A stretch of 64,000 nt of DNA from Halalkalicoccus subterraneus (GTDB lineage Archaea; Halobacteriota; Halobacteria; Halobacteriales; Halalkalicoccaceae). The stretch's first letter is position 1. The number at the start of each line of letters is the position of its first letter. This document shows, piece after piece, positions 10,463 through 48,922 of this stretch. The notes under the pieces are model-generated. The model was not told the DNA's origin, made no database searches, and was given only the letters and a program-made list of their open reading frames with translations. The stretch is from contig NZ_RDQG01000009.1 of the NCBI RefSeq assembly GCF_003697815.1, forward strand, positions 1 to 64,000, in the 5' to 3' direction. Both the position numbers and the translations under genes were made by a program.

Positions 10463-10560
10463 CATCCATATCGTTACAATCGTACTCGTGTAATCGTATG
10501 TTCGTGACTGTGGCCAATTTTGTATAGTGAAATTCGATTTATGACCTCGAAATGAGAACG

Positions 10561-11595
10561 TTATTCGAGCCGGTATATATTCGATTCGTAGATATCGCGC
10601 ACGCGATCGCCCCAGTTGTGGGTGTAGGTATCGATCACGTCATCGGCGACGTCGCCCCGAAGGTATTTGACGATCCCACGTTCGCCCGTTTGGCCCCGCA
10701 GGTACGTCGTGAAGAAGTGACGGAAGTAGTGGGGAGTGACGTTCTCGCTCGCGCCGCCGCCGGTTCGGTACCACCCTCGCTCGCGCGCGTATCGTTCGAC
10801 GGTGTGGTGGACGGTCTGGGCCGAAACCCGATCGCCCCACTGGCGTGTCGTGTTACAGAAGAGCGGTTCGGCCGGCGAGCGAGCGTCGGGTCTGACCGCG
10901 AGCCAACGAATTAGCGCCCGACGGAGGTCGCCATCGATGGGGACGACGGTCGGACGGCGTCGCTTGTTCGAATCGATGCGTTCCTCGCCATTGACGGTCC
11001 GACCGCGGGCGGGCTCGGGGGAGACATAGATCGAATCCGGTTTTCCGTGGAGCTGTGGTCGTGGTTCGACGTTGAGTTCGATCGCATCCGTCGAGAGGGA
11101 GAGATCGCGAAGATCGAGGTTGCACAGTTCGCCGGCACGCATCCCCGTTTTCAACAGGGAGAGGATCATCGCCCGTGAGAGCGGATGCTCGATTCTTCGA
11201 ACGAACTCGCGCATCTCCTTGACGCTGATCTCACGACGGGTCGGGTCGACATCGATCGATTCGTCCATCTGTTCGACGACTAGTGCCATCGGGTTCTCCT
11301 CGAACTCGCCGATTTGCGCCATATAGGCGTAAAAACGGTGGAGATACGACGCGTAGGTCGCGAGCGTGCTTTCCGCGACTTCGTCGCGCTGACCGTGGAT
11401 CCAGGCCATACACCCCCGGTGTGAGACCCCAGAAAGGGAGTTCGCACGTGGGTACTTGATCTCGATGAACGCCTCGAAATCCCGCAATACGCGCTCGTAA
11501 GCCGACCGAGTGCGTTCGGTTTTACCCTGATACTCGATGTCTTGAAGGAAGTACGCGATCGGGTCTTCCGCGCTACCCGGTTCGGTCCCGCTCAT
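10561..11595 (-). CDS. Tyrosine recombinase / XerC-D-like site-specific integrase
   Basis: A 344-aa recombinase with an N-terminal SAM-like core-binding domain (about 10-110) and catalytic domain (about 120-344). Catalytic residues are visible: Arg153 in TGMRAGEL, His289-x-x-Arg292 in PHYFRHFF, and Tyr324 in IDTYTHNW. The protein is therefore probably active. The start at 11595 is chosen because its ATG overlaps the stop of the DUF5805 gene by four bases, an arrangement seen repeatedly in haloarchaea. It may resolve dimers, or be the remaining integrase of an element; no tRNA or attachment repeat lies within several kb, so an integrated element is not demonstrated. Confidence 0.9.
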   Translation of the reverse strand: MSGTEPGSAEDPIAYFLQDIEYQGKTERTRSAYERVLRDFEAFIEIKYPRANSLSGVSHRGCMAWIHGQRDEVAESTLATYASYLHRFYAYMAQIGEFEENPMALVVEQMDESIDVDPTRREISVKEMREFVRRIEHPLSRAMILSLLKTGMRAGELCNLDLRDLSLSTDAIELNVEPRPQLHGKPDSIYVSPEPARGRTVNGEERIDSNKRRRPTVVPIDGDLRRALIRWLAVRPDARSPAEPLFCNTTRQWGDRVSAQTVHHTVERYARERGWYRTGGGASENVTPHYFRHFFTTYLRGQTGERGIVKYLRGDVADDVIDTYTHNWGDRVRDIYESNIYRLE

Positions 11596-11978
11596 GAGCG
11601 GTCGTTCAGCGTATAACCGCCATCCCGGCCGCTGTACCGGAGACGATTTTCCTCTTGAAGGGATTGGAGCGCCTCGTCCAGCCGGTCCTCGAAATCGTCG
11701 GTCAACACCGCGACGAGTTCGTCCCACGAGAGCGGCCCGGAACCGGCGAGGACCGACTTCACGCGCGATTCGAGATCGGTGCCGTCATCCGCCACGTTCC
11801 GCTCGTTCGCCGGCCCCTCCGTTGGCTCGAATCCCTTACGACCCGCCTGAACCATCGTTCGAAGGAACTCGCTCTGGCTCATGTTGAGATCCTCGGCGTG
11901 GTCGACCCAGATCCGTTTTTGGTACGCTGGGACGTGTGTCTTTACGACTGTCCGTTCGGTGTCGCGTTCGGCTGCCAT
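11592..11978 (-). CDS. DUF5805-type small protein, ribbon-helix-helix-like, coupled to the integrase
   Basis: A 128-aa acidic protein. The N-terminus (RTVVKTHVPAYQKRIWVDHAEDLNMSQSEFLRTMVQAG) reads like a ribbon-helix-helix/MetJ-Arc type DNA-binding segment, and the C-terminus (LSWDELVAVLTDDFEDRLDEALQ...LRYSGRDGGY) like a small winged helix. It is known mainly as a haloarchaeal family found immediately before XerC/D-like integrases, with which it overlaps by four bases here. A role as regulator or accessory factor of the recombinase is inferred. A purine-rich GGAGGAGGGG lies upstream of the chosen ATG at 11978; the longer reading to 12044 lacks family similarity. Confidence 0.75.
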   Translation of the reverse strand: MAAERDTERTVVKTHVPAYQKRIWVDHAEDLNMSQSEFLRTMVQAGRKGFEPTEGPANERNVADDGTDLESRVKSVLAGSGPLSWDELVAVLTDDFEDRLDEALQSLQEENRLRYSGRDGGYTLNDRS

Positions 11979-12126
11979 ATTGGCCGTTTGATCCCCTCCT
12001 CCTTTAATGTACCAGAATAGGAAATAAGAGTGTTTATTATCCAAATTGGTTCCTAACTTAGCCCTATTTTCTATTCATATATTATTCTGTAGTACTACCC
12101 TTCGCCATCTAAGGGGCTAATTGAGA

Positions 12127-12690
12127 ATATAAATTCCGATTGGCACAGTCGGATGGATATCATTAGTACAGGGGCGACCTTCCGACAGTGGGCGCAACCT
12201 CGTGTCTTCCGCCTTGCCCTGGGGTAGCACCCGGAAGACACCCTTCCGGAGAAACTGGTTTCCCATCCCCTGCTCCATGGAGTTCGAAGCAATCGAAGTG
12301 ACGCGTACTGAGGTAGAGGAACCATCGGGGCCTCTGATAAGGGTTGTATCCCGGCCCGTCAGTCATCTAGCAGCGCGAAGAGCGATAAGACTGACCCTCG
12401 TAGTGAGGTCCAGAGGGGATGGCCCGGAGGATAGCTTTCCAAAGTGGCCTACGGTCGGTTGTAATCCGATCAGTTGTTAACTCGATGCATGGGGCAGCCG
12501 TGCCCCAGAAAACGACTGTCCCGTTCGGATAGGATCGGATAGGAGGTAGCGGACGAACCACTTCCCGACTTCGCGACCATCACGATGAGCCAACTCGCGT
12601 GGCTTCTATACTACTCTCTGGAACGGCGCTCCCTGTCCATCGATCCGACAACCGGTATTCGAACTGGGGAACAACGGTTTTCTTTTGGGC
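12127..12690 (+). ncRNA. Candidate structured non-coding RNA behind a TATA box
   Basis: The gap from 11979 to 12934 has no credible gene. A TATA-like AATATAAAT (12126-12134) would start transcription near 12155. From there come, in order: a perfect 10-bp stem (12202-12211 with 12232-12241), GGGCC/GGCCC (12328-12332, 12353-12357), immediately GTCAGTC/GACTGAC (12358-12364, 12389-12395), immediately CCTC/GAGG (12396-12399, 12405-12408), and a 7-bp stem with 4-base loop (12490-12496, 12501-12507). A T-rich run at 12677-12686 could end the transcript. I could not match it to RNase P RNA, SRP RNA or rRNA by eye. Alternative: remnant of an insertion element. Boundaries are approximate. Confidence 0.4.
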
Positions 12691-12934
12691 CAAAGGTCAT
12701 AAATCTCATATTGATATACAAACTATCCTTCTCTTGAGTTCCAGACTCTGACTGTTTGGATATCTACAAACCACCATCTCGTTAATACGTTTGTATGACT
12801 ATCCTGATCTAACGAGTTGATTTACCCTCTCGGTATGAATCTACGACAGCCTCGTGCAAAAGATAGTTCCTGACGCTCTAAACGATCCGTAAAGGATCAA
12901 CTATGTTGATAGTGCAATTCTCGAGCCGTGGTAT

Positions 12935-13291
12935 TTACGTCACTCGGAGGTGGTCATCCCGGGGTTCGTAGAGCTCACCGTTCATCCGCAGTTCACGCAC
13001 CGCCTCGAGCGTCTCGCCGATCGTCATGTCCCGCTCACTCATCACAACGGTCACGAGGCCGAGCGGGACGTTGCCCTCGACTCGGGTCTCCAGTGCTGCG
13101 ATAACGGATCGAAGATCCGCGCCCGATATTGCGCCTTCGTCGAGTTCCGCGTGCCTCCATTCGACGTCATGACCGGTGATCGCGTGATGGCGACGGTAGA
13201 AGGCGACTGCCTCGTTGACGTCGTCGATCGACTTTTTGACCGCACAGTCCGGACAGGCGACAATGAGCCGCACTCCGTCGGACCGGTTCAT
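12935..13291 (-). CDS. Unknown 118-aa protein, downstream partner of the Rieske oxygenase gene
   Basis: Not recognised. The 118-aa reading from the ATG at 13291 has an N-terminal pair CPDC in a VRLIVACPDCAVKKSIDD context, then a charged middle part with HHAITGH, and a C-terminal helix-rich segment (IGETLEAVRELRMNGELYEPRDDHLRVT) that resembles a winged-helix end, with the GELYEP turn seen in haloarchaeal MCM-like tails. It starts 14 bp after the stop of the Rieske gene on the same strand and is probably co-transcribed. A regulatory or metal-handling accessory role is possible; no function is claimed. The longer ORF to 13384 overlaps the Rieske gene and is not preferred. Confidence 0.65.
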   Translation of the reverse strand: MNRSDGVRLIVACPDCAVKKSIDDVNEAVAFYRRHHAITGHDVEWRHAELDEGAISGADLRSVIAALETRVEGNVPLGLVTVVMSERDMTIGETLEAVRELRMNGELYEPRDDHLRVT

Positions 13292-27995: not shown

Positions 27996-28010
27996 TAGAA
28001 ATAATTGTAA

Positions 28011-28424
28011 TTACAGCTCCCGAAGGAGCCGACGGACATGCCCCAAGGAATACTCGACACCGTACTCGTGTCGAATGTGCTCCCTGACTAGCTCGGTCGA
28101 CCACGATGACGACTCGTAACCGGCCTCCTCCGGCGGCGCTTCGAACGTTTCGGCGAGTGCATCGCGCTCCTCGTCGCCGAGTTTTCGCGGCCGGCCGGAA
28201 CGCGGTTCGTCCTCCAGGGCTTCCTCAAGCCCCCTCTCATCGAAGCGGTCGAGCCAGTAGTAGATCGTCGACTGCGGAACGCCGTACAGGCGGCTCAGAT
28301 GCCCGACGGACCGACCATCAGTGTAAGCGAGCGCGATCATCAGCCGTTGAACTGCTTTGTGGTCCGTCGTCGCGGCCAGCGCGGTGCGGAGTTCGTCCCC
28401 CGTGATCGATTCGAGTTTCGCCAT
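28011..28424 (-). CDS. Stand-alone helix-turn-helix protein of IS630-type transposase N-terminus
   Basis: A 137-aa protein with two DNA-binding units typical of the first third of IS630/Tc1 transposases: HTH_29-like VQRLMIALAYTDGRSVGHLSRLYGVPQSTIYYWLDRF and a winged-helix part SSSWSTELVREHIRHEYGVEYSLGHVRRLLREL. The DDE catalytic domain is absent and the frame ends cleanly in LREL, with no DDE-like sequence downstream, where the SMC-like gene ends 15 bp away. It is either a truncated transposase or a domesticated regulator; such stand-alone genes are frequent in haloarchaea. No inverted repeats were found at its ends. Confidence 0.75.
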   Translation of the reverse strand: MAKLESITGDELRTALAATTDHKAVQRLMIALAYTDGRSVGHLSRLYGVPQSTIYYWLDRFDERGLEEALEDEPRSGRPRKLGDEERDALAETFEAPPEEAGYESSSWSTELVREHIRHEYGVEYSLGHVRRLLREL

Positions 28425-28542
28425 CGGCTCGAGTCGGTTGTACAATTAGTTATGTTTGACGGATCGTTCACGGACAAATGATGTGGTGATTAAACACATA
28501 CTAAATAAAGTCTATGCTGATATATTAAGTTCCGGAGAACGC

Positions 28543-48848: not shown

Positions 48849-48922
<74 letters not shown>

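Follow-up and report, generated by a model that had tools for sequence, protein, structure and literature searches.

Among the described systems nearest to the locus analysed here is the archaeal XerA/dif pair, a chromosome resolution system, for which the P. abyssi dif sequence was taken from Cortez et al. 2010 (PMC2958812). Other relevant systems are the single-recombinase Xer modules XerS/difSL and XerH/difH, in which the site adjoins the recombinase gene (PMC5357621), and invertible DNA switches that depend on a tyrosine recombinase, for example PsrA (PMC7096588). A review of Haloferax volcanii counts 12 XerC/D-like genes without an assigned site or role (PMC7776575), and no haloarchaeal dif was found in our literature searches.

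The locus is an undescribed module in which a core recombinase locus is bracketed by two facing sites; no description of such bracketing sites together with this locus was found in the literature searched. As in XerA/dif, there is a chromosomal, single-copy tyrosine recombinase, for which XerA and XerD are the nearest solved relatives, and an AT-rich site of ~29 bp. XerA/dif has one dif per replicon, whereas here the gene is enclosed by two facing sites and additional pairs lie at other places; the present locus also differs in its constant DUF5805 neighbour and in an Asp that replaces the His of the last catalytic motif. With XerS/difSL and XerH/difH the locus shares the location of a (here putative) recombination site beside the recombinase gene, but those modules have a single site, whereas two convergent sites are present here. 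The likeness to PsrA-type switches consists of inverted sites flanking a segment that lies next to, or contains, the recombinase; the difference is that the spacers of the two sites are unmatched here, and that none of the congeners whose flank was in view showed an inverted state.

Layout of the locus and its two facing sites

The window, by which we mean the whole 64-kb stretch of DNA that was analysed, belongs to a haloarchaeal genome of 3.6 Mb and contains the DUF5805 gene, the gap and an HVO_B0008-like gene in this order. The recombinase (integrase) and DUF5805 genes directly follow one another on the same strand, with a long gene-poor region upstream. The features of the locus, with site scores from a position weight matrix (PWM), are:

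10514..10546, plus strand: site 1, a copy of the ~29-bp site that points inward, shortly after the 3' end of the integrase gene (PWM score 31.8)
10561..11595, minus strand: tyrosine recombinase, Xer-like, 344 aa (Pfam PF00589, 8.8e-16, and PF02899)
11592..11978, minus strand: DUF5805 protein, predicted to be a small DNA-binding protein (PF19121, 3.8e-27)
11979..12694, no strand: gap from DUF5805 to site 2, without a gene, hypervariable, AT-rich in its first 150-200 bp
12127..12134, plus strand: TATA-like element ATATAAAT, a possible promoter element
12202..12241, plus strand: conserved palindromic hairpin, YTTC..ACCCnnGGGGT..GAAR
12679..12687, plus strand: T-rich run TTTTCTTTT, a possible archaeal terminator of a plus-strand transcript
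12695..12727, minus strand: site 2, the second copy, facing site 1 across the integrase, DUF5805 and the gap (PWM score 30.9)
12935-13291, minus strand: HVO_B0008-like gene on the far flank of the gap

In a same-genus comparison the congeners keep the order IclR, integrase, DUF5805, gap, HVO_B0008-like gene and Rieske oxygenase. Elsewhere in the window, a tRNA-Lys (ttt) at 48849-48922 is the sole Rfam match.

DUF5805 is present in 346 of the 347 good haloarchaeal genomes of the order, mostly in single copy, and the integrase in all 8 of the genomes checked (at least 88% complete, or with DUF5805), deep lineages included. The top solved relatives of the recombinase are XerA 5hxy (2.7e-7), XerD 1a0p and XerA 4a8e. 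The catalytic residues R (TGMR), HxxR (PHYFR) and Y (TYTH) align with those of XerA; in the last catalytic motif of the same alignment the integrase has an Asp where XerA has a His (RGD vs GH). DUF5805 itself is mentioned in no paper found by literature search. Its AlphaFold model, of low confidence (pLDDT 62), consists of the elements H18-30, H35-48, H66-80, H85-92, H97-109, E, E: an unstructured start leads into two N-terminal helices, and the C-terminus is helical and carries two strands. Such a model is compatible with a ribbon-helix-helix-like N-terminus and a helix-helix-wing (winged helix) C-terminus. The pattern TTCAAT...ATAAG....TTAT is conserved ~20-75 bp upstream of DUF5805 in most loci (~12004-12042 in the window), and is possibly an autoregulatory operator in the DUF5805 promoter.

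The ~29-bp site was first seen through weak blastn matches in two congeners, which lay in inverted orientation a little beyond the integrase genes; weak, noise-like matches within the genus at window 12694-12719 turned out to be the inverted site. A position weight matrix for the shared site was built on the congeners and refined over 78 loci, the refined model being ATTCGRTATAGCGAYATAYRRTTTAYNAGT. In these same 78 loci, on which the matrix was trained, a site is present on the plus strand past the integrase 3' end in 76 (median score 36.6) and on the minus strand upstream of DUF5805 in 73 (median score 33.3), while controls with the other strand or a reversed site, in the same regions and at the same threshold, give 2 to 5 of 78 (medians from −1 to −5). 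Pattern searches, which provide an independent check, return only two matches to the exact core in the genome of the window, namely site 1 and site 2; a degenerate version of the pattern is found in 273/294 genomes, and its reversed control in 1/294. By the matrix, site 1 and site 2 are the top plus-strand and minus-strand sites, respectively, of the entire window. At 28501-28533, on the minus strand, there is an isolated site of lower score (23.0), beside a remnant that by eye is IS630-type transposase-like (~28000-28420). Another lone site of the same genome (G000:C37 at 5189) is located just upstream of a truncated-integrase-like frame, where the surrounding sequence is plasmid-like and includes a ParA-like gene.

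The site contains an internal dyad, ATATAGCGATAT; it does not divide cleanly into two arms, and alternative dyad centres score slightly higher. At its left end the site reads ATTCGATATAG, which is similar (9/11) to ATTGGATATAA, the left arm of P. abyssi dif. With the full site model P. abyssi dif scores −23.7, below shuffles (mean −17.1), and thus membership in the dif family by sequence is unsupported; the left arm scores 8.4, with 203/3000 shuffles as good. Since P. abyssi dif misfits the site model, we do not claim that the locus belongs to XerA/dif.

Ownership of the sites

As the best explanation we tentatively favour a control flank together with a bracketed Xer-like recombinase module that has its own recognition sites and DUF5805. 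The contender that survives best, unlikely on balance and still a serious one, is that the sites are owned by some other DNA-binding protein (a regulator, or a chromatin or SMC-type boundary factor) marking small core loci, of which the recombinase locus would be only the most constant target.

Sites also occur at other loci. There are several convergent pairs per genome: in a hand tally of neighbouring sites within 5 kb in 18 genomes, ~34 were convergent, 2 divergent and 1 tandem. Convergent pairs bracket plasmid-type tyrosine recombinases, and also the genes for Rio2, DUF5783 and DUF7838 (a zinc-ribbon protein), three core loci bracketed in this way without any recombinase. Sites are present on the two sides of DUF7838 in 13/30 and 15/30 loci, and of DUF5783 in 13/30 and 12/30, with 0-4/30 for the opposite orientations. 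On secondary contigs of one genus, convergent sites ~1.5 kb apart enclose integrase genes that are related (weak PF00589).

The pairs at DUF7838 and DUF5783, and the Rio2 pair without a recombinase, are what would be expected if another protein owned the sites, and the internal dyad would suit a dimeric regulator. However, the recombinase locus shows by far the stronger association (76/78 and 73/78), and plasmid-type tyrosine recombinases show it again. The genes for Rio2 kinase, a DUF5805-like protein and the recombinase stand side by side in a deep lineage (G011; C116, 1826-5600), where they share sites arranged as + + before and − − after them. This adjacency suggests an ancestral linkage, and the Rio2 pairs may be relics of the linkage between Rio2 and DUF5805-Int; some of the other pairs may have the same origin.

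The gap, its hairpin and the bracketed segment

The first-pass annotation had seen, beside the integrase, a gene-free region with a possible new structured RNA; its pointer to the integrase proved to be the fruitful part. The absence of genes is real: there is none between 11979 and 12934, the DUF5805 gene starting at 11978 on the minus strand, and no candidate frame of at least 100 aa was found in the window gap. Homologous gaps are likewise long and gene-poor, with a median of 1.19 kb. According to a strict codon bias 11/72 of them carry a gene, and a lenient rule yields a candidate frame in 44/72; given these figures, it would be too strong to state that the gaps are always non-coding. The GC content of the gap region is below that of its surroundings. 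A blastn search with the gap across 394 genomes of the order returned chance-level matches only and no homologue, and the gap sequences of congeners are unalignable at the same syntenic position, where the flanking proteins are mostly 75-95% identical. Probably the gap serves a core recombinase locus of haloarchaea as its non-coding, fast-evolving control flank, and is not a long RNA.

One element of the gap is conserved, the hairpin at 12202-12241. It recurs in 6/7 congeners, in 5/5 genomes of genus g36 and in 2/3 of genus g47, the last two being genera of another family; the motif is limited to g1, g36 and g47. Its distance from the DUF5805 start is +229 to +251 (398 in one locus), and in most loci that carry it AT-rich TATA-like elements are found 80-90 nt upstream; the TATA box that had been reported in the window is indeed present as the TATA-like ATATAAAT. 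The P1 arms vary between loci, yet they pair in several of them, as for example GTGTCTTCCG/CGGAAGACAC (10 bp) in the window and GTGGTTT/AAACCAC in L073. The stability of the hairpin has no strand bias (mean z = −0.66 for the RNA strand, −1.24 for the opposite strand), and RNAalifold with 9 sequences gives 7 consensus pairs, 1 of the 7 with a two-sided change. Covariance-model matches that always fell at one position within DUF5805 genes were rejected as coding artefacts.

The hairpin could form the 5' end of a short divergent transcript, or else act as a DNA (binding) palindrome. The former would imply a short divergent non-coding transcript that starts near 12155, ends near 12690, and regulates or assists the recombinase. 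We consider such a transcript quite improbable: the fixed spacing between TATA-like element and hairpin in most of 13 loci, the arms that differ between loci and still pair in several, and the T-run that precedes site 2 all point towards it, but the unbiased stability, the confinement of the motif to g1, g36 and g47, and the single consensus pair with two-sided change point away from it.

The inverted orientation of the facing sites, with a tyrosine recombinase between them, also brings to mind a phase-variable segment that is flipped between the two sites by its own recombinase. Strand exchange requires matching spacers. If the proposed 7-bp centre of the site is assumed to be the crossover spacer, the spacers of the two copies are identical in only 2/70 cases, and their identity is 0.588 within and 0.560 between genomes. 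These usually unlike spacers speak against simple inversion; moreover, the integrase faces IclR1 in 6/6 congeners with that flank in view. An invertible segment is therefore very improbable.

OLE, GOLLD and omega RNA are large structured non-coding RNAs found beside mobile-element genes, and the window locus resembles theirs in having a long gene-free stretch with stems adjoining a recombinase. All the stems that had been listed are present: besides the 10-bp stem of the hairpin, there are 7-bp stems at 12358-12395 (GTCAGTC/GACTGAC) and 12490-12507 (TGGGGCA/TGCCCCA), and short ones of 5 and 4 bp at 12328-12357 and 12396-12408, respectively. With loops of 3-30 nt allowed, 4 perfect stems reach 7 bp or more, compared to 0.73 expected from dinucleotide shuffles (0/60 reach 4), and the 10-bp stem is matched in 0/60 shuffles. 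The fold of the whole region is similar to that of shuffles (z = −1.08 on the plus strand, −0.51 on the minus strand): local stems are above chance, but global RNA stability is not. A stem excess as a general property of the gaps was rejected, as the enrichment ratio is 1.25 in homologous gaps and 1.14 in coding controls. Over 72 homologous gaps the mean fold z is −0.29 on the plus and −0.27 on the minus strand, with coding controls at about zero; since this slight excess of stability is strand-symmetric, it is not what a structured RNA would be expected to produce.

Unlike OLE, GOLLD and omega RNA, the window gap has no conserved structure along its length, even among congeners at the same locus, and no match to a known RNA family in Rfam, either at the gathering threshold or at E≤5, save one chance match. 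Despite the excess of short perfect stems and the position beside the recombinase, a long (~560 nt) structured RNA of this kind, with ordinary folding energy, no blastn homologue in 394 genomes and unalignable congeners, is scarcely credible; of the RNA originally proposed, the part that survives is the hairpin at 12202-12241, and the structure along the whole length does not. As for a decayed transposon or pseudogene remnant, which the hypervariability and the GC content below that of the surroundings might suggest, it is practically out of the question, because the region is single-copy in its own genome, has no blastn match in phage or plasmid collections, and corresponds to a similar gap at almost every homologous locus.

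An Xer-like reading of the module

Overall, the locus is most likely a domesticated Xer-like recombination module with recognition sites to which the recombinase would bind. According to the explanation that we tentatively favour, the ~29-bp sites would be those that recombinases of this family recognise, DUF5805 would be a DNA-binding partner or an autoregulator, and the first 150-200 bp of the gap would contain divergent promoters. Recombination of each site would take place with the identical copy that a sister chromosome or multimer carries, in the service of genome maintenance as with Xer; recombination between the facing sites is less probable than between sister copies, because the two copies rarely share a spacer. 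That the module works like Xer is our leading hypothesis. It has to be weighed against the convergent pairs at recombinase-free core loci, which mean that another protein could own the site, and against the several convergent pairs in place of one dif per replicon, the failure of P. abyssi dif to match, the Asp for His, and a site that has no clean division into two arms.

A more general proposal, possible if somewhat doubtful, is that of a core haloarchaeal system in which one Xer-like recombinase, inherited vertically, would work together with DUF5805 on facing pairs of ~29-bp sites at single loci, on chromosomes as well as plasmids; such a system would be multi-locus, dif-like or cassette-like, and unlike any described.

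What began as an RNA claim is now a bounded regulatory region with one short conserved hairpin. The wider interest of the locus lies in the resolution of chromosome and plasmid multimers in haloarchaea, which the combination of a near-universal recombinase and a precisely mapped site makes directly testable. If instead the sites belong to another factor, they would at any rate point to a conserved element of genome organisation at named loci.
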